Of a DNA stretch of 64,000 nt, positions 14,001 to 56,115 are shown piece after piece; position 1 is the first letter of the stretch; each line of letters begins with the position of its first letter. Source of the DNA: an uncultured Alistipes sp. (GTDB taxonomy: Bacteria > Bacteroidota > Bacteroidia > Bacteroidales > Rikenellaceae). Under the pieces are notes generated by a model. It had not been told where the DNA came from, made no database searches, and saw only the letters and a list, made by a program, of their open reading frames with translations. Location of the stretch: positions 97,797 through 161,796 of the forward strand of contig CALVFO010000026.1 of NCBI GenBank assembly GCA_944326855.1, in the 5' to 3' direction. Both the position numbers and the translations under genes were made by a program.

Positions 14001-14870
14001 CTATTTTTTCTTAGGTTTATGGGGATGGGAAGACGACGGGGAAGGACTTGAGGCCAGCGGAGCCGGGACAAGAGCCGGTTTGCGGAGTGCCCGCCACAGA
14101 ATCACCACCCCTGCCAAAATGAACGGAAGGCTGAGTAGCTGCCCCATATTCAGAAACATGTTCTCTTCGAACGCCTCCTGGGGATTTTTGACGAATTCGA
14201 TGAGAACCCGGACTCCGAACAGAACGATCAGGAAAAATCCGAACATGACGCCGGGACGGCGGCGGGCCAGGTCTTTTCGATAGTACATCCACCACAGAAT
14301 GACGAAAAGAATCAGGTATGAGAAGGCTTCATAAAGTTGTGTGGGGTGTTTGGGAACGACCTCTCCGTTGCGGACGAAGATAAAGCCCCACGGCAACGAG
14401 GTTTCGATACCATAGATTTCGGAATTGAGCAAGTTGCCGATCCGGACGAGAGCACCGGCGATCGCAACGGCGATTCCGATCCGGTCCAGCGACCAGATGT
14501 AGGGCATTTTGTATTTGCGGGAGAACAGCCACAGGCCGATGAGCAACCCTACGGCGGCACCATGGCTGGCCATCCCTCCGTCACGGATATACAGGATTTC
14601 GATCGGATGGGTCAGGTAGTAACCCGGGGCATAAAACAGGCAGTGTCCCAACCGCGAGCCGATGACGGTCGACAATACTCCGTACCAAAAAATCGAATCG
14701 AACATTTTGGGCGAGTATCCTTCGCGTTTCATCATGAAATTGAACAGATAGGCGCTGATGGCCAGTCCTACGGCCCACATCAGACCGTAATAGCGAATAT
14801 CGAACGATCCGATCGACAACATGGAGGGGTCGACATCCCAGGTGACGAACAGAGGCAAAAATGTTTCCAT
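14001..14870 (-). CDS. lgt: Prolipoprotein diacylglyceryl transferase
   Basis: 289 residues in the inner membrane, with about seven helices. It transfers diacylglycerol from phosphatidylglycerol to the lipobox cysteine, the first step of lipoprotein maturation. The essential His lies in GGMASHGAAVGLLIG, and the essential Arg and Asn in RIGNLLNSEIYG. The ATG at 14870 (METFLPLFVTWD) is preferred over 14891 because it lies downstream of the -7 promoter box at 14889. Its long C-terminal tail ends in Pro/Ser/Lys-rich sequence. Many lipoproteins in this window depend on this enzyme. Confidence 0.95.
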   Translation of the reverse strand: METFLPLFVTWDVDPSMLSIGSFDIRYYGLMWAVGLAISAYLFNFMMKREGYSPKMFDSIFWYGVLSTVIGSRLGHCLFYAPGYYLTHPIEILYIRDGGMASHGAAVGLLIGLWLFSRKYKMPYIWSLDRIGIAVAIAGALVRIGNLLNSEIYGIETSLPWGFIFVRNGEVVPKHPTQLYEAFSYLILFVILWWMYYRKDLARRRPGVMFGFFLIVLFGVRVLIEFVKNPQEAFEENMFLNMGQLLSLPFILAGVVILWRALRKPALVPAPLASSPSPSSSHPHKPKKK

Positions 14871-14888
14871 AACCGTTGAGCGTTTCGA

Positions 14889-14896
14889 CAAAGATA
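14889..14896 (-). promoter_or_regulatory. -7 box for the lgt-SPOR operon
   Basis: TATCTTTG on the minus strand, an exact TAnnTTTG match, 18 bases upstream of the lgt ATG at 14870. Confidence 0.6.
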
Positions 14897-15130
14897 GGAA
14901 TTTTCCGTAAACGGCCTTATCGTCACGACTTGGAGAGCGAGCGGGTAAGTGACTTCAGGAGAATGATACGTCTGAAAAGAAGGTGTCGGTTCAGGCTGCG
15001 GGGATGCGGTTGTTCCGGAACGTATGGATTCGGGAAACGATCGGAGTCGGACCGGAGCGTGTGGAATCGGGCCGGGAGGTGGAATCAGACTGGGAAGAGT
15101 GGAATCGGATCGGGATGGAATTGGCGGATC

Positions 15131-16159
15131 TCAGGCATCCGCAGGCGGTTTGCTTAAGGTGAATGAGAAGGTACTGCCTTCGTTGAGGCGACTGCGCAGG
15201 TTGAGCGTTTCTCCGTGTGCTTCGAGGATGTGTTTGACGATGGCCAGCCCCAAACCCGTACCGCCCTGTTCCCGTGAGCGGCTTTTGTCGACCCGGAAGA
15301 ACCGTTCGAAAACCCGGGGTTGATGTTCTTCGGCGATGCCGATCCCGTCGTCTTGCACCTCCACCATGATCTTGTCGAAACCGTCGATGAAACTGACGGT
15401 AATATGTCCTCCCTGACGCCCATACTTGATGGCATTGCTGATCAGGTTGAGAACAACCTGGCTGATCCGCTTGCGATCGGCGTACACGATGACCGGCAGT
15501 TCCGAATTGATCCGGATTCGGATCTCCTTCTTGGCTGCTTCCATCTCGAACGTGTCGGCCACCTCGCGAACCAATTGAACCAGATCGAACGGTTCTTTGT
15601 CCATGATCTGCAAACGGCTTTCGTATTGGGAAATGTCTTCCAGATCCTGAACGATGTTGATCAGCCGTTCGATGTTGCGTTCGGTACGTTCGAGGTATTT
15701 CTGGTTGATGCTGTCGTCTTTCAACCCTCCGTCCAGCAGGGTCAGGATATAGCCCTGGATCGAAAACAAGGGTGTTTTGATTTCGTGCGAGACGTTGCCG
15801 ATGTATTGCTTGCGAAAGAGCTCGTTCTCTTTGAGGCGGGCGATTTCCTGAGCGTTGCGGTCGGCCCAATGGGTCAGGTCGTCTTGAATCGTTTCGACGA
15901 TATCGCCTTTCTGAGGCAATTCCCGGGTGCGCAGATCTTTGGACAGCAGGATCTGATAGATCGGCTTGATACGGTACAGAACGTATTTGTTGATGAAGTA
16001 TCGGGCCGACCAGAAGGTGATTCCGAAAACGATGCCGAAAATCAATAGCATTACGGGCAGCGGCTCAGGATAGAACAGGCTGCACAACAACCCCACTGCC
16101 GTGGCTGTCAGGCTGATCGCCATGGCTACGCCATGGATGGTCCTGATCTTGAGTTTCAC
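15131..16159 (-). CDS. Membrane sensor histidine kinase (PhoR-like)
   Basis: 342 residues. Two membrane helices (about 10-30 and 35-55) are separated by only a few residues, so there is almost no periplasmic sensor. A dimerisation helix carries the phospho-acceptor H125 in GNVSHEIKTPL. The ATP-binding domain has the N box (NLISNAIKYG), G1 (DDGIGI) and G2 (GTGLGLAIVKHI). No response regulator adjoins it, so its partner is elsewhere. It starts 12 bases after the riboflavin synthase stop and is probably cotranscribed with it. With no real sensor loop, it probably detects a membrane or cytoplasmic cue. Confidence 0.88.
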   Translation of the reverse strand: MKLKIRTIHGVAMAISLTATAVGLLCSLFYPEPLPVMLLIFGIVFGITFWSARYFINKYVLYRIKPIYQILLSKDLRTRELPQKGDIVETIQDDLTHWADRNAQEIARLKENELFRKQYIGNVSHEIKTPLFSIQGYILTLLDGGLKDDSINQKYLERTERNIERLINIVQDLEDISQYESRLQIMDKEPFDLVQLVREVADTFEMEAAKKEIRIRINSELPVIVYADRKRISQVVLNLISNAIKYGRQGGHITVSFIDGFDKIMVEVQDDGIGIAEEHQPRVFERFFRVDKSRSREQGGTGLGLAIVKHILEAHGETLNLRSRLNEGSTFSFTLSKPPADA

Positions 16160-51428: not shown

Positions 51429-51478
51429 AAAAGTCGCGGGAATAGTTTTCGCTGCGGGAAAACTATTCCGCGACTTTT
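51429..51478 (-). terminator. Terminator of the cytochrome-oxidoreductase operon
   Basis: A stem of about 20 bp with one bulged base (core AAAAGTCGCG/CGCGACTTTT plus GGAATAGTTTT/AAAACTATTCC) and A/T runs at the base. It lies about 150 bases beyond the TIM-barrel gene stop; nothing else is seen in 51479-51624. Confidence 0.85.
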
Positions 51479-51624: not shown

Positions 51625-52530
51625 TCAGGCTTGTTCCCATTGGCTGCGCAGCAGTTCCAACGCAACGGGGACGGTTTGAGCCCGATCTCCGGTGCTGCCG
51701 CATTCGAAGCTGACGTAGTAGGGATAGTTCATCTGCTTGAGGGCGCGGAAACCCTCTACATAGTTGTCCAGTTCGCCGTCTTCACCCGGCATGCGCCGTT
51801 TCCCACGGCTGGCGACATGCACGTGACGCAGGTAAGGTCCTCCGCTGTACAAGGCTCCGTAGTCGGAAGTCTCTTCGGCGGTCATGTGCCAGAAATCGCC
51901 CATGCAGCATACGCCTTCGCAAGCCGTGTCCCGGCAGATCGAAGCGGCGTCGGCTACCTGACGCAGGTAGAAGGCTTCGGAGCGGTTGAGCGGTTCGAGA
52001 ATGACCGTCGTCCCGTGTCCGAGGGCATATTCACCCAACAGGGCGAGCTGTTCGACCAGATAGGCTCGGGTGTCGGCATTATGGGGCATGACCGGAAGTT
52101 GTTTATTGAAGGCCGGCACCATGATGACACCCGTCGAACCCAATTCTCCGGCAGCAGCGATGATCTCCTTCATCGTCCGGTCGAATTCGGCCCGTACGGC
52201 GGGATCTTCGGCGAGAATGAAGCCCGAAAAACCGGCACAAATGGCGCTTACCTGAATATTCCGTCCCCGCAGGAGCTGTTGCAGTTCAGGAACCCGTTCG
52301 GCCAGTCCCCGGCCTCCGGGTTCGAAGCCGACGATACCGTTGGCCTCCATGAAATCGAGCTTTTCGGTCAGGGTTTCTCCCGGAGCCGTATTTTCCTGGA
52401 ACGAAAGTCTTAACGGCGTCGGTTCTCCGGCCGGTTTCGATTCGGCACACCCTCCCAGCAGCGAGGCAGGAGCGGCGGCGGCCAGGGCCGTACCGGCCAG
52501 CGAGGTTTTCAAAAAGGTTCTTCTGTCCAT
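51625..52530 (-). CDS. Tat-exported xylose-isomerase-like TIM-barrel protein
   Basis: 301 residues. The N-terminus is a twin-arginine signal with lipobox (MDRRTFLKTS...LLGGC, lipid Cys28). The body is a sugar-phosphate isomerase/epimerase-type TIM barrel, with metal-ligand candidates in TTVILEPLNRSEAFYL (Glu), CMGDFWHM (Asp, His), LRHVHVASRG (His) and YVSFECGS (Glu). Exported members of this fold act on oxidised or free sugars as isomerases, epimerases or lyases of 3-keto-glycosides. It is the last gene of the operon with the Gfo/Idh/MocA oxidoreductase, so it probably processes that enzyme's product. Confidence 0.85.
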   Translation of the reverse strand: MDRRTFLKTSLAGTALAAAAPASLLGGCAESKPAGEPTPLRLSFQENTAPGETLTEKLDFMEANGIVGFEPGGRGLAERVPELQQLLRGRNIQVSAICAGFSGFILAEDPAVRAEFDRTMKEIIAAAGELGSTGVIMVPAFNKQLPVMPHNADTRAYLVEQLALLGEYALGHGTTVILEPLNRSEAFYLRQVADAASICRDTACEGVCCMGDFWHMTAEETSDYGALYSGGPYLRHVHVASRGKRRMPGEDGELDNYVEGFRALKQMNYPYYVSFECGSTGDRAQTVPVALELLRSQWEQA

Positions 52531-52549
52531 AATTTTCGTGTTTGCAGGG

Positions 52550-53020
52550 TTATAGGTCTTCGAGGGCCTCGGCCAAACGGCTCAGATAGGCCTCAATGGC
52601 GGGACGGTCGTCCGGAGCCGGAGACCAGAATGCGATCTCGTCGGGCTCCAAAGGACGGTACGGGCCCGCTTTGGTCTCATACAGGACGGTTCCGCTCTCC
52701 AGCACCAACAGCCCGTGCCATTCACCGGCCGGAATGTCGAAACCGTATACTTTTTCCCGGGGATCGACGACGGTTTGCTGGATGATGCTCCCCTCTTCGT
52801 CGAAGATGAAAGAGGCCACCCGGCCGCGCAGGAGGACAATCCCTTCGTCCTTGTCCCGGTGGCGGTGCGCCGGCAGGAATGTGCCGGGTTCCAGGGCATT
52901 GAGCAGACGGTGGAAGGGATCCTCCAGGTGATGGTGAAAGTTGTGGTTCATACGACCCCGCACTGACGAGCGAGCCCGAAGGCTCGTCTCGTCCAGCAGG
53001 GTTCGGTCGATGATTTTCAT
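52550..53020 (-). CDS. WbuC-family cupin
   Basis: 156 residues, a cupin with a His-rich metal site: HHHLEDPFHRLLNALEPGT, then PAHRHRDKDEGIVLLRG and a late His in PAGEWHGLLV. It has the WbuC layout, a family often found in surface-polysaccharide loci. There is no signal peptide, so it is cytoplasmic, unlike the neighbours on both sides. It starts three bases after the oxidoreductase stop and ends 19 bases before the TIM-barrel start. It may epimerise or isomerise a sugar imported from this pathway. Reaction unknown. Confidence 0.82.
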   Translation of the reverse strand: MKIIDRTLLDETSLRARSSVRGRMNHNFHHHLEDPFHRLLNALEPGTFLPAHRHRDKDEGIVLLRGRVASFIFDEEGSIIQQTVVDPREKVYGFDIPAGEWHGLLVLESGTVLYETKAGPYRPLEPDEIAFWSPAPDDRPAIEAYLSRLAEALEDL

Positions 53021-53023
53021 CGC

Positions 53024-54412
53024 TTATTTACTCTTGGGAACTCCCGGTACGGGGATCTGATACAGCGGTTGGGTCATATCCACACTGCCCAATTGGGGAT
53101 TCTCGGGCACGTAGTTCAGCGAAGCCGCTGCCATTTCGTCCCAGGAGATCATCTTGCCGCTGTAGGCCGATTCGCGGGCCATGATGGCCGCCATGTTGGA
53201 CAGCGCAGTTTCTTCGGCCTGCATGATCGGGTTGCCCTGGCGAATGCAGTTGATCCAGTTGACGTGTTCCAAAACGTAGGGATTGGTCTGGGTATGTTGG
53301 GCTTTTTCGGCTTCCAGGTCGAATTCCCAGAGTACATTGCCCTGCAAATCCTTGATGACGCAGCTGCCGTTGCTGCCGCTGTTGCTGGCCCAACTGCCCC
53401 GGGTTCCCTGGATGAACTCACTGACGTTGTTGGCGCAACCGTCGATCTGCCGGCACATGCTGTGGAAATGCACCCCGTTGTCGCAGACGAAATCGGTGCT
53501 GAAGCTGTCGAACTGGTCGCCGGTGAGACGACGCTGACGACTGCCGAACGAAGTGGCGCTGACGGGTTTATAACCCGAGAACCACAGGAATACGTCGATG
53601 TTGTGAACATGCTGTTCCACGATGTGGTCGCCCGAGAGCCATTTCCAGTTCACCCAGTCGCGGATCATCCATTCCATGTCCGACCACCCTTTTTCGCGGT
53701 TTTTGTACCACAGCATGGACTGGTTCCAATAGACGTTCCCGCCCGTGATCTCGCCGATCATGCCTTCGAGAACGATTTTTTTGTAGGATTCCACATACGG
53801 GCGCTGGTGGTGTCTTTGGGTGCCGGTCACCACGCACAAGCCTTTGGCTCGGGCCTGTTTGGCCGTCGCCATGATGGTGCGGTAACCTTCGGGATCCACG
53901 GCGATGGGTTTTTCCAGGAACGAATGAACCCCCTTTTCGGTTGCATATTTGAAGTGCAGCGGACGGAAGGCAGGCGGCGTGGCCACGATCACCACATCCA
54001 CGCCCGAGTCGATTACTTTCTGATAGGCATCGAAACCGATGAAGCAGTTTGCATCGTCGATCGTAACGTTATATTGTTCCTGGAGTTCGCCGCGCAGGTG
54101 TTCCAGCCGATCGCTGAACACGTCGCCCAAAGCGGTGATGGTTACATTGTCGGCGGCCGTCAGAAAATCCTTGGCCGCTCCGGCTCCACGGCCTCCGCAG
54201 CCGATCACTCCGGCTTTGAGCGGTTTGCCGTCGAGGGCTTTATCCATCAGATCGGGGATATATACCTCTTCGGGAGAACGCAAAGGCGTGTTTTGGGCAT
54301 TTTTGTCGGAGCAAGAAGTCAGGATAGTAGGAAGGCCCAGGGCGCCGATCACCCCGGCAGCTGTCGTGTAAGAGAGAAATTCACGACGGCTGATGTTCTT
54401 TTTTTCGCTCAT
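53024..54412 (-). CDS. Tat-exported Gfo/Idh/MocA-family oxidoreductase
   Basis: 462 residues. The signal (SRREFLSYTTAAG...LTSC, lipid Cys34) is a Tat lipoprotein signal, so the protein is exported folded, carrying its dinucleotide. The Rossmann fold has GCGGRG (71-76), and the catalytic Lys lies in EKPIA (167-171). A second motif, SGDHIVEQHVHNID (260-273), holds likely catalytic His and Asp residues. Exported members oxidise sugars or glycosides or act as NAD-assisted glycosidases (GH109-like). It is second in the operon after the cytochrome fusion; substrate unknown. Confidence 0.88.
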   Translation of the reverse strand: MSEKKNISRREFLSYTTAAGVIGALGLPTILTSCSDKNAQNTPLRSPEEVYIPDLMDKALDGKPLKAGVIGCGGRGAGAAKDFLTAADNVTITALGDVFSDRLEHLRGELQEQYNVTIDDANCFIGFDAYQKVIDSGVDVVIVATPPAFRPLHFKYATEKGVHSFLEKPIAVDPEGYRTIMATAKQARAKGLCVVTGTQRHHQRPYVESYKKIVLEGMIGEITGGNVYWNQSMLWYKNREKGWSDMEWMIRDWVNWKWLSGDHIVEQHVHNIDVFLWFSGYKPVSATSFGSRQRRLTGDQFDSFSTDFVCDNGVHFHSMCRQIDGCANNVSEFIQGTRGSWASNSGSNGSCVIKDLQGNVLWEFDLEAEKAQHTQTNPYVLEHVNWINCIRQGNPIMQAEETALSNMAAIMARESAYSGKMISWDEMAAASLNYVPENPQLGSVDMTQPLYQIPVPGVPKSK

Positions 54413-54525
54413 TTCGTGGTTATTTTAGGTTTTGGTTAGGTTTCTGTTTAAGGGGAAGGGTTTTATTCCCGGTATTGTGGTGTTCCTCCGCTTGATGTCA
54501 ACGACTCATGCGGAGACCGTCGGAT

Positions 54526-56058
54526 CTATTCGCCCTCGTATTCGCAAACGACCCGGAATCCGATGGCCCGAATGTCGGAATACCACCAGATGCTTTGCGG
54601 TTGTTGGGGGTCGGTTTTCAGCCATTGCTTGTGGCGGGTATGGTCGCGGGCGGCACAACGCAGCACCGAGGCGTCATCGGCGAACTGACCGCCTCGTACC
54701 ACATGTTCCTCCCCGGAGGCCGGACCCTGGGGGTCGGTGACTCCGTCGGTCAGCTGGGCATAGGCATCGGGAGCATACCAGTCGGCACAATATTCCATGA
54801 CGTTGCCCAGCATATTCTTCAATCCGAACGGGTTGGGTTGTACAGCCGACGGCTCTTCGCTGCGGTTCTGGCTGTTGTTGGCATAAATCACGTAGCGATT
54901 GATGGGCGAGGTGTCGGCCTTGAACAACTTTCTCCAGAATCCTTCGTTGGAAAAGTCTTTCGGATCACCTTCGAAGAAATAGGGTGTGGTCGTTCCGCCG
55001 CGTGCGGCGTATTCCCATTCGGCTTCGGTCGGCAGCCGGTATTTCTTGCCGGTTTTTTTCGACAGCCACAGACAGAAAGTCTCGGCGGCATAATGGGTCA
55101 TGGTGATGGCCGGACGGTCACCCCCGCCCCAACCCTGGTCGGGAATCCCGAACGGAGGCGTAGGTCCGCTGATGGCATCTACTTCCGGATCGGCGTTGTG
55201 GGCGAAAACCACTTCGGGAGGCGTGCGGCCTTCCGACATCGTTTCGGCATAAAAAGCCCAATACTGATCCCAGGTTACTTCGGCTTCACCCATGAAAAAC
55301 GATGAAATGTTCACTTGACGTGCCGGGCCTTCGTCTTCGCGGCGGAAGGATTCTTCCGGCGAACTGCCCAGCGTGAACGAACCGCCGGGAACGGCTTTCA
55401 TCTCGAAGGATACGGTGGTGCCGGGAATGCGTTCGGTAAACGATTCGAAACGGGTGACCGGAGTGGCTTCCGTGAAAGGTTCTCCCTGGTCTTTCTGTTG
55501 GGGAATGCCCTCCATTTGGGCGTGGACGTAATTGGGATTATAGTGCCCTACGTCGAGGTGGCAGCTGATACACTGCAGATTGAGTTTCTCTTCGTTGGCT
55601 TCGTAGTAGAGGTGTGCGGTGATCCCTTCGTCGGTCAGCCGGGCCGGGAACAACTGTTGGTGGCACTCCTTGCAGGATTCGTTGTAGACAATGCCTACGG
55701 CATAATCCAGCTGCTTGCGGCTTTCCCAGTCGAAACTGCTGCTGTCTTTGGTGTAGTAGGACCACAGATCCTTGAGCCCCATTCGGGTTTTGGTGGCGAA
55801 GTGGTGGAAACTGCCTTTGGGGGGAAGATGGCAGGCTGCACAATCGGTGATGACTCCGCTTTTGGAGTTATAGTGGGTGGAGAGTTTCCAGCTTTGGTCG
55901 GCCTGAGGATGGATATGGCAGGATAGACAGTATTCGTTGGAAGAGGTTTTCAGGTAGACCCGGTTCAGGGCGATGGTTACGCTGACGCCGATGACCGCGC
56001 CGATACCGGCGATCCACAGGGCGCGTTTGAGGCGTTTGCTTTTGGAAGAGTCGGACAT
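54526..56058 (-). CDS. Tetraheme NapC/NirT cytochrome fused to FGE-sulfatase-like domain
   Basis: 510 residues. An N-terminal membrane anchor (about 12-32) is followed by four CxxCH haem sites (Cys44, Cys73, Cys129, Cys163), the NapC/NirT quinol-dehydrogenase layout. Residues about 217-507 form an FGE-sulfatase (SUMF1-like) domain: MKAVPGGSFTLGSSPEE, YRLPTEAEWEYAARGG, NMLGNVMEYCADWY and HVVRGGQFADDASVLRCAARD. The two catalytic cysteines of true formylglycine-generating enzymes appear absent from this last stretch, so it is not expected to mature sulfatases. The protein probably sits on the periplasmic face and passes electrons to or from quinone. It is first in the operon. Confidence 0.92.
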   Translation of the reverse strand: MSDSSKSKRLKRALWIAGIGAVIGVSVTIALNRVYLKTSSNEYCLSCHIHPQADQSWKLSTHYNSKSGVITDCAACHLPPKGSFHHFATKTRMGLKDLWSYYTKDSSSFDWESRKQLDYAVGIVYNESCKECHQQLFPARLTDEGITAHLYYEANEEKLNLQCISCHLDVGHYNPNYVHAQMEGIPQQKDQGEPFTEATPVTRFESFTERIPGTTVSFEMKAVPGGSFTLGSSPEESFRREDEGPARQVNISSFFMGEAEVTWDQYWAFYAETMSEGRTPPEVVFAHNADPEVDAISGPTPPFGIPDQGWGGGDRPAITMTHYAAETFCLWLSKKTGKKYRLPTEAEWEYAARGGTTTPYFFEGDPKDFSNEGFWRKLFKADTSPINRYVIYANNSQNRSEEPSAVQPNPFGLKNMLGNVMEYCADWYAPDAYAQLTDGVTDPQGPASGEEHVVRGGQFADDASVLRCAARDHTRHKQWLKTDPQQPQSIWWYSDIRAIGFRVVCEYEGE

Positions 56059-56107: not shown

Positions 56108-56115
56108 CAAATTTA
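56108..56115 (-). promoter_or_regulatory. -7 box for the cytochrome-oxidoreductase operon
   Basis: TAAATTTG on the minus strand, an exact TAnnTTTG match 50 bases upstream of the ATG at 56058. Confidence 0.55.

Follow-up and report, generated by a model that had tools for sequence, protein, structure and literature searches.

Within a window of 64,000 nucleotides from an uncultured Alistipes species (the window being the whole stretch of DNA that was analysed), four consecutive genes on the minus strand at positions 51625-56058 appear to encode an extracytoplasmic dehydrogenase module for sugars, probably glycosides, that is linked to the respiratory chain. We assign this reading a probability of roughly 55%. 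As judged by sequence comparison, a predicted exported and lipid-anchored oxidoreductase of the Gfo/Idh/MocA family (Gfo in the following) and an FGE-like domain (FGE, formylglycine-generating enzyme) form a conserved pair, in which the FGE-like domain is fused to a NapC/NirT-type cytochrome in Bacteroidales, and in the window's family and its near relatives a predicted exported TIM barrel protein belongs to the set. The four genes are the following.

54526-56058, minus strand: gene 1, membrane-anchored tetrahaem NapC/NirT-type cytochrome fused to an FGE-like domain, 510 residues (open reading frame and Pfam).
53024-54412, minus strand: gene 2, Gfo/Idh/MocA oxidoreductase with the signal of a lipoprotein exported by twin-arginine translocation (Tat), 462 residues (open reading frame, Pfam and NCBIfam).
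52550-53020, minus strand: gene 3, cytoplasmic cupin of the WbuC type, 156 residues, accessory (open reading frame and NCBIfam).
51625-52530, minus strand: gene 4, Tat-lipoprotein with a xylose-isomerase-like TIM barrel, 301 residues (open reading frame, Pfam and structure-sequence matches).

We surveyed 120 genomes of the window's family for these genes. The full-length cytochrome-FGE protein, a close Gfo (at least 59% identity) and the TIM barrel (at least 61% identity, one copy being split over two contigs) are each present in 23 of them, and it is the identical set of 23 that holds all three (hypergeometric probability 4e-25, a figure that gene linkage makes in part automatic). In 20 of these genomes the cytochrome gene adjoins the Gfo gene. 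In the other three they lie apart with both retained, about 1.1 Mb from each other on one contig in G013 and on different contigs in G009 and G029, where the TIM barrel gene remains next to the Gfo gene. The cupin gene is found beside the other three in 11 of the 23 genomes, and in G069 it stands beside the TIM barrel gene on another contig. A four-gene unit was considered as the core and rejected, since 12 of the 23 genomes have no cupin gene next to the others; by gene content, the family core is three genes, for the cytochrome-FGE protein, the Gfo enzyme and the TIM barrel, and the cupin is accessory. Note that the cytochrome gene of G044 is an open frame of 583 residues, and that the Gfo gene of G039 (L059:9645-11324) is cut in two by an in-frame stop, through decay or an assembly error.

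Relatives beyond the family were collected by scanning named genomes with the cytochrome alignment, and the best 80 of a larger number of matches were analysed. Among these 80 are 14 NapC-fused relatives, from Parabacteroides, Tannerella, a Dysgonomonadaceae metagenome-assembled genome, Sunxiuqinia, Maribellus and other Bacteroidota, and all 14 have an adjacent Gfo gene, located on the opposite side in L070. The best 80 also contain FGE-like proteins without a NapC part, from Flavobacteriaceae, Sphingobacteriaceae, Chitinophagaceae, Planctomycetota, Verrucomicrobiota and Acidobacteriota, many of them with a Gfo gene directly downstream. Overall, 51 of the best 80 loci have a same-strand Gfo gene at a distance of at most 3.5 kb, namely 50 of the 66 that score at least 140 bits versus 1 of the 14 below. 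An apbE gene is found in 19 of the 80, and a clustering of neighbours within 6 kb gave apbE-like neighbours in 18, not quite the same set.

The phylum, which is Bacteroidota by its named relatives, was surveyed in 395 genomes. An orthologue of the FGE-like domain (E < 1e-73, above a gap in the scores) is present in 51 of them and a Gfo orthologue (E up to 1e-80) in 64, and all 51 are among the 64 (p of about 2e-52, uncorrected for the relatedness of species). For the analysis of loci we used 52 of the 54 orthologue-level FGE-like matches, leaving out the window itself and a truncated match in G338, and compared them with 20 control FGE loci, one per genome, taken from the next weaker matches; as 15 of these controls come from one other family (f19), the two sets differ in lineage too. 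A Gfo gene on the same strand within 3.5 kb accompanies 46 of the 52 FGE-like loci (within 1 kb in 45, at 3.4 kb in L187) versus 1 of the 20 controls (Fisher 3e-11). For apbE within this distance the counts are 19 versus 1 (Fisher 0.008), and for some TIM barrel gene on either strand 26 versus 1 (Fisher 3e-4). The lone positive control is L203 in every case, and it looks like a true member. In G253, G301, G368 and G490 a Gfo orthologue is present elsewhere in the genome, unlinked to the FGE-like gene. As evidenced by G199, where of 14 Gfo candidates only the one adjacent to the FGE-like gene reaches E 1e-8 against the profile of the window's Gfo, the association appears to involve a specific orthologous group and not any Gfo.

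An orthologous TIM barrel (above 300 bits) accompanies the FGE gene in 17 of the 22 family loci, in 6 of the best 80 named loci and in 1 of the 52 survey loci. TIM barrels near unfused loci match that of the window weakly (about 33-66 bits), and the one tested on NCBIfam, from L099, is nearer to hydroxypyruvate isomerase, so that they probably belong to another subfamily. Since unfused FGE-like genes stand beside Gfo genes in Bacteroidota, Planctomycetota, Verrucomicrobiota and Acidobacteriota, the gene neighbourhoods identify the FGE-like domain, rather than the cytochrome, as the wider companion of the Gfo enzyme, and this is what is new in the present analysis. Two of the unfused loci deserve mention for their own sake. 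In Sphingobacterium (L099:9959-17345), genes for an FGE-like protein, a Gfo, ApbE, a TIM barrel, an unassigned product (14371-15618) and a GMC oxidoreductase follow in a row, and two kinds of sugar dehydrogenase may share this one locus. In Maribacter (L083:10884-16779) the FGE-like gene is followed by genes for YceI, PSCyt1/PSCyt2/PSD1, DUF1501 and PSCyt1, with no Gfo gene found nearby, and clustering gives L088 a similar neighbourhood.

The product of gene 1 scores 92.2 bits on Cytochrom_NNT (Pfam PF03264, cut-off 24.1), and its four CXXCH motifs start at residues 44, 73, 129 and 163. Its parts are arranged as follows.

55945-56010, minus strand: putative N-terminal membrane helix, about residues 17-38, read from the sequence (helix 4-38 in a low-confidence model).
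55915-55929, minus strand: haem motif 1, C44-H48, Cys and His invariant in 18 of 18 rows of alignment A1.
55828-55842, minus strand: haem motif 2, C73-H77, Cys and His likewise invariant (18 of 18 rows).
55660-55674, minus strand: haem motif 3, C129-H133, Cys and His likewise invariant (18 of 18 rows).
55558-55572, minus strand: haem motif 4, C163-H167, Cys and His likewise invariant (18 of 18 rows).
54544-55416, minus strand: FGE-like domain, about residues 215-505, 140 bits on PF03781 (FGE-sulfatase), above cut-off, and a domain model.

No other NapC/NirT (PF03264) match turned up in the genome, whose completeness is about 93%, and for that reason the cytochrome looks dedicated to the module. 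On NCBIfam it reaches 61.7 bits on the NrfH equivalog (cut-off 134.2) and stays below the cut-offs of the NapC and TorC models as well. A role as the NrfH or NapC partner of a nitrite or nitrate reductase was rejected on the grounds of these scores, of the adjoining Gfo gene and of the single NapC/NirT match in the genome, no direct search for NrfA having been made. The model of the full-length protein is poor, with a mean predicted local distance difference test score (pLDDT) of 57.5, so that no haem-FGE geometry can be derived from it and only the model of the FGE-like domain is usable.

That domain model has a pLDDT of 87.6 and a predicted template modelling score of 0.88, and its best fold matches are PvdO, the top solved match, and FGE. 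The PvdO equivalog of NCBIfam gives 89.5 bits, far below its cut-off of 500. The copper-binding pair of cysteines, which we take to follow the RGGSF motif in FGE, a position also read from 6s07, is absent: within residues 460-466, Cys ranks among the commonest residues at position 466 only, where 3 of 61 rows have it. With the copper cysteines missing, the reading of the domain as a true FGE that acts on sulfatases was rejected. The tree unites the 19 NapC-fused rows in a single clade (support 100/100). The FGE-like domain is also fused to PSCyt1, a planctomycete cytochrome c, in five verrucomicrobial proteins (L081, L085, L098, L100 and L108), and the tree does not resolve the number of origins of this fusion. 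That one domain has been joined to two unrelated kinds of cytochrome is, among the sequence features, the strongest hint of electron exchange between FGE-like domain and haem.

Gene 2 scores 48.5 bits on GFO_IDH_MocA, above the Pfam cut-off, and retains the Rossmann glycine motif, the lysine of the EKP motif (K168) and the stretch E266-Q-H-V-H270; we take the lysine and the D/E...H pair to be catalytic. Tat signals with a lipobox can be read in the sequences of both gene 2 (RREF...LTSC) and gene 4 (DRRTF...LGGC). The Tat model TIGR01409 supports the former with 18.4 bits (cut-off 16.7), and PF10518 falls just under its cut-off for the latter (22.2 versus 22.7). Membership of the Gfo in the BT_2158 glycoside 3-dehydrogenase family of NCBIfam was rejected, as the score is 20.1 bits versus a cut-off of 750. 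A second Gfo in the same genome (G000:C55:19995-21344, L036) is 46% identical, and profiles detected no FGE, ApbE, TIM barrel or haem partner in the surrounding 15.8 kb; orphan paralogues similar to it occur in other genomes (L037-L041). Gene 3 is a WbuC cupin with 144 bits on TIGR04366 (cut-off 42).

Gene 4 scores 92 bits on AP_endonuc_2, above the Pfam cut-off. The nearest solved structure is 3kws, a putative sugar isomerase (E 8e-149), and the nearest with a named function is 6wn6, a 3-keto-D-glucoside 4-epimerase (E 1.1e-34). Residues E179, D212, H238 and E276 are conserved and align with Glu, Asp, His and Glu of YcjR, where they presumably form the metal site. This relationship and the retained residues make a 3-keto-glycoside a reasonable intermediate in the window's family. 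According to PMC10628242, an Agrobacterium protein annotated as a sugar phosphate isomerase cleaves a 3-keto-glycoside by beta-elimination, so that both epimerase and lyase roles are possible for the TIM barrel.

These data support the interpretation given in the initial annotation in part. It had proposed that sugar oxidation is coupled to the cytochrome, and had held that this would fail if the cytochrome gene were not kept beside the oxidoreductase gene in relatives; the two are adjacent in 20 of 23 family genomes and in all 14 named fused relatives, and all partners are still present in the three genomes where they are unlinked. Its keto-sugar pathway is favoured by the nearness of the TIM barrel to 6wn6, and the precedent that it cited from Bacteroides is not borne out for the Gfo, which scores far below the cut-off of BT_2158. 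The inclusion of the TIM barrel in the gene set holds for the same 23 of 120 family genomes and weakens in distant relatives, that of the cupin does not hold up, and the FGE-like domain, treated there as a passenger, follows the Gfo gene across phyla.

In the mechanism we propose, the Gfo enzyme would oxidise a secondary alcohol of a sugar or glycoside on its bound nicotinamide adenine dinucleotide (NAD). The FGE-like domain would dock the Gfo and take electrons from the bound NADH to the haems, the hydride perhaps passing to a covalent flavin mononucleotide (FMN) on the loop described below and single electrons from there to the four haems, which would deliver them to menaquinone. By midpoint potentials, the oxidative direction to menaquinone is downhill. 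The TIM barrel would then epimerise, isomerise or cleave the keto-sugar product.

55159-55179, minus strand: loop D294-A-I-S-G-P-T300 of the FGE-like domain, like the ApbE motif D-x-x-[S/T]-G-A-[S/T] (alignment A4, 61 rows).

Alignment A4 consists of 55 of the 66 FGE matches of at least 140 bits, L136 and five family rows. Within it D294 is invariant (61/61), position 4 is Ser or Thr in 54 rows, and position 6 (Ala or Pro) and position 7 (Ser or Thr) keep to these residues in all 61. In the domain model the pLDDT drops under 50 at residues 275-278, 280-282 and 293-303, and yet 294-300 is among the best conserved stretches. Eleven rows that were truncated, hard to trim or not needed stand outside the alignment; a regular expression finds D-x-x-x-x-P-T at the loop in L110, L114, L123, L125, L127 and L130, elsewhere in L112 and L116, and not in L080, L120 and L129. 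In the phylum survey the loop is present in 43 of 47 scored members versus 0 of 17 scored controls, where 5 of the 52 members and 3 of the 20 controls had been dropped with an unrecognised core motif, including control L203, which visibly has the loop. A looser pattern, itself requiring [D/E]...[A/P][S/T], places it in 51 of the 52 members (Asp in 47, Glu in 4), the remaining one being unscorable. The exactly canonical ApbE motif occupies the loop in 7 of the 61 rows, L076, L077 and L078 in the fused clade and L089, L091, L093 and L105 in Flavobacteriaceae or Flavobacteriia, and the alternation of Pro and Ala at position 6 needs five changes on the tree, at least three of them forced by well-supported branches.

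In the accessible part of the review PMC12052999, the last residue of the ApbE motif takes the FMN, loss of the Asp has minor effects, changes of Gly to Ala or Ala to Val halve modification, and Pro or Arg at those positions are not mentioned. Flavinylation of the FGE-like loop is a good hypothesis. We advance more tentatively, and regard as rather doubtful, the wider proposal of the FGE-like domain as a covalent flavoprotein of a new type, in which ApbE would put FMN on the conserved Thr or Ser of a D-x-x-[S/T]-x-[A/P]-[T/S] loop and the FGE fold would act as two-to-one-electron converter, passing hydride from the permanently bound NADH of the exported Gfo to c-type haems and on to quinone, as an NAD-based extracytoplasmic respiratory sugar dehydrogenase found over several phyla. 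Note that the sole ApbE found in the window's genome (G000:C36, L226:6257-7543) is encoded beside a gene for a YegS-type lipid kinase.

A number of observations speak against the respiratory dehydrogenase as a whole or against its flavin step. NapC/NirT cytochromes usually move electrons outward from quinol, in the opposite direction, and a two-to-one-electron switch has to be hypothesised because a one-electron transfer from bound NADH to haem would be difficult. With respect to gene neighbourhood, no more than 6 of the 14 named fused relatives among the best 80 matches have an orthologous TIM barrel gene as a neighbour, 16 of the 66 named loci of at least 140 bits have no Gfo gene near, and the same is true on the same strand for 6 of the 52 survey loci. 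In 13 of the 395 genomes a Gfo occurs without a strong FGE-like match, G447 and G373 among them having a weaker FGE match beside the Gfo gene. The link is weaker for the PSCyt1 group, where L098 alone of the five fusions has a Gfo gene in its neighbourhood. Moreover, the control set is skewed towards family f19 (15 of 20 loci). With respect to flavin, the loop of the window departs from the canonical motif in having Pro in place of Ala, and none of the 51 scored survey loci carries the canonical form. Among the 19 ApbE-linked survey loci 14 read R-P instead of G-A, and no gene of at least 100 residues in any of the 19 contains the canonical motif. No apbE gene lies within 3.5 kb of any of the seven canonical rows, and none is near the 22 fused family loci, some of which are on short contigs.

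The alternative that survives best is that the FGE-like domain serves only as a docking or glycan-binding scaffold, with the loop as a protein-protein contact and apbE nearby owing to another flavoprotein. FGE-like folds are presumably structural in PorK/GldK of the type IX secretion system and in a Treponema variable protein (fold matches 9mzu and 2y3c), the loop of the window is non-canonical, and the lack of a canonical motif in the 19 ApbE-linked loci means that the ApbE target may lie elsewhere. Such a scaffold leaves unaccounted for the canonical DxxSGAT at exactly the loop position in 7 of 61 aligned relatives, the repeated changes at position 6, and a last residue that is invariably Ser or Thr across the 61 rows, as in all 51 survey rows scored by a pattern that demanded it. 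We consider it quite possible, if somewhat short of probable.

Reversal of the wiring, whereby menaquinol would send electrons through the haems and the FGE-like domain to a Gfo that reduces keto-sugars outside the cytoplasm as a respiratory electron sink, draws on the PF03264 match, NapC/NirT proteins being usually quinol dehydrogenases that feed periplasmic reductases. The host moreover looks like a member of an anaerobic gut-type lineage of Bacteroidales, for which electron sinks would matter. By the potentials that we take to apply, the reduction of a sugar ketone via bound NAD(H) from menaquinol is uphill, and we judge this direction unlikely. A redox-neutral Gfo of the GH109 type, which would oxidise, eliminate, hydrate and re-reduce on the same NAD while the FGE-like/cytochrome protein rescues over-reduced cofactor, matures the enzyme or does something similar, appears improbable to us as well. 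Exported Gfo proteins of this kind with bound NAD are known, and the Agrobacterium TIM barrel that acts as a 3-keto-glycoside eliminase (PMC10628242) would suit such chemistry. What speaks against it is that the partner domain has been fused to cytochromes of two kinds, which points to electron flow, and that no chain named GH109 is among the 11 structure matches to the Gfo at E 1e-5, a GH109 family model not having been run. A chance co-inheritance of unrelated exported genes, which would draw on the fact that linked genes share phylogenetic profiles without joint function, deserves very little credence in view of the co-retention of the genes when unlinked and of an association that is found in four or more phyla and is nearly absent from the control sets.

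The respiratory dehydrogenase proposed here can be set beside several known systems. The LacABC dehydrogenase is a GMC flavoprotein with a cytochrome c, whereas the window has a Gfo/Idh/MocA enzyme and an FGE-like/NapC protein, with neither GMC nor DUF1080 among the operon's four genes. The LacABC-type glycoside 3-dehydrogenases of Caulobacter and Pedobacter, with their DUF1080 ketoglycoside hydrolase (PMC9007349), resemble the proposed module in membrane-bound periplasmic oxidation of glycosides to a 3-keto product that is then processed by a separate exported enzyme. Relative to YcjS/YcjQ-YcjR of E. coli, the window differs in that both its enzymes bear export and lipoprotein signals. The E. 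coli pathway is cytoplasmic, uses soluble NAD and has no cytochrome. The likeness (PMC11543891 and 6wn6) is the pairing of sugar dehydrogenases with a related TIM barrel 3-keto-D-glucoside epimerase/isomerase. BT2156-BT2160 of Bacteroides thetaiotaomicron likewise comprises a Gfo-family glycoside 3-dehydrogenase in Bacteroidales, but the Gfo of the window is below the BT_2158_fam cut-off and its set has an FGE-like/haem partner. A 2024 paper in Nature reportedly describes a broad-specificity 3-keto pathway in Bacteroides.

The single membrane anchor and four CXXCH motifs are those of the quinol dehydrogenases NapC, NirT, NrfH and CymA, from which the product of gene 1 is set apart by its fusion to the FGE-like domain and by its scores below the NrfH, NapC and TorC cut-offs. 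With the FGE/PvdO/EgtB superfamily the domain shares a common fold, PvdO being the top solved match, but it lacks the copper-binding Cys pair and adjoins a Gfo gene. ApbE-flavinylated extracytosolic carriers are similar in that apbE adjoins an exported redox module, and an interchange of flavin and cytochrome is described for fumarate reductases in PMC8238504; the main text of that paper contains no occurrence of formylglycine or FGE, and the fused form found here has no apbE nearby. In the literature searched, which comprised open-licence papers and in which the slash spelling of Gfo/Idh/MocA is partly unsearchable, we found no description of this gene set.

Two candidate signals frame the operon.

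56108-56115, minus strand: TAAATTTG, a box of the Bacteroidota -7 type (TAnnTTTG), candidate operon promoter, about 50 bases upstream of the first start codon.
51429-51478, minus strand, palindromic and thus usable from both strands: strong terminator-like hairpin downstream of the operon, folding z = -6.8.

TAnnTTTG is what we take to be the -7 motif of Bacteroidota, and a two-part pattern with an upstream TTTG found no match at the TAAATTTG box, so the promoter at 56115-56108 is weakly supported by sequence. The hairpin at 51429-51478 reaches -27.8 kcal/mol in a folded stretch of 66 bases, a value that none of 200 shuffles equalled. The initial annotation had described four genes on one strand, in the order and from the families given here, with one promoter box upstream and a strong terminator downstream. 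Coordinates and family scores bear out the former and the hairpin the latter; the box is present and lacks a matching upstream element. Between genes 1 and 2, the 113-base gap at 54413-54525 shows no minus-strand intrinsic terminator and no TAnnTTTG box, and co-transcription of the four genes is plausible. The gap does contain a foldable CUCCGC/GCGGAG hairpin with no U tract (z = -2.6), possibly a site of RNA processing or regulation. The flanking POLY, ROK and TAM genes were seen to accompany the operon only in its nearest relatives (L042 and L043), which indicates that the conserved unit stops at the borders of the operon.

Many Bacteroidota and Planctomycetota export NAD-dependent sugar enzymes, and we know of no explanation for how such enzymes dispose of their electrons outside the cytoplasm. 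A conserved partner that is joined to two kinds of haem protein and often lies near flavin-transferase genes would offer a direct and testable answer. If it is correct, sugar oxidation at the membrane surface could provide gut Bacteroidales with respiratory energy, the FGE fold would acquire both a function as redox carrier and a new flavinylation motif, and gut and environmental bacteria would have a so far undescribed route to gain energy from sugars.

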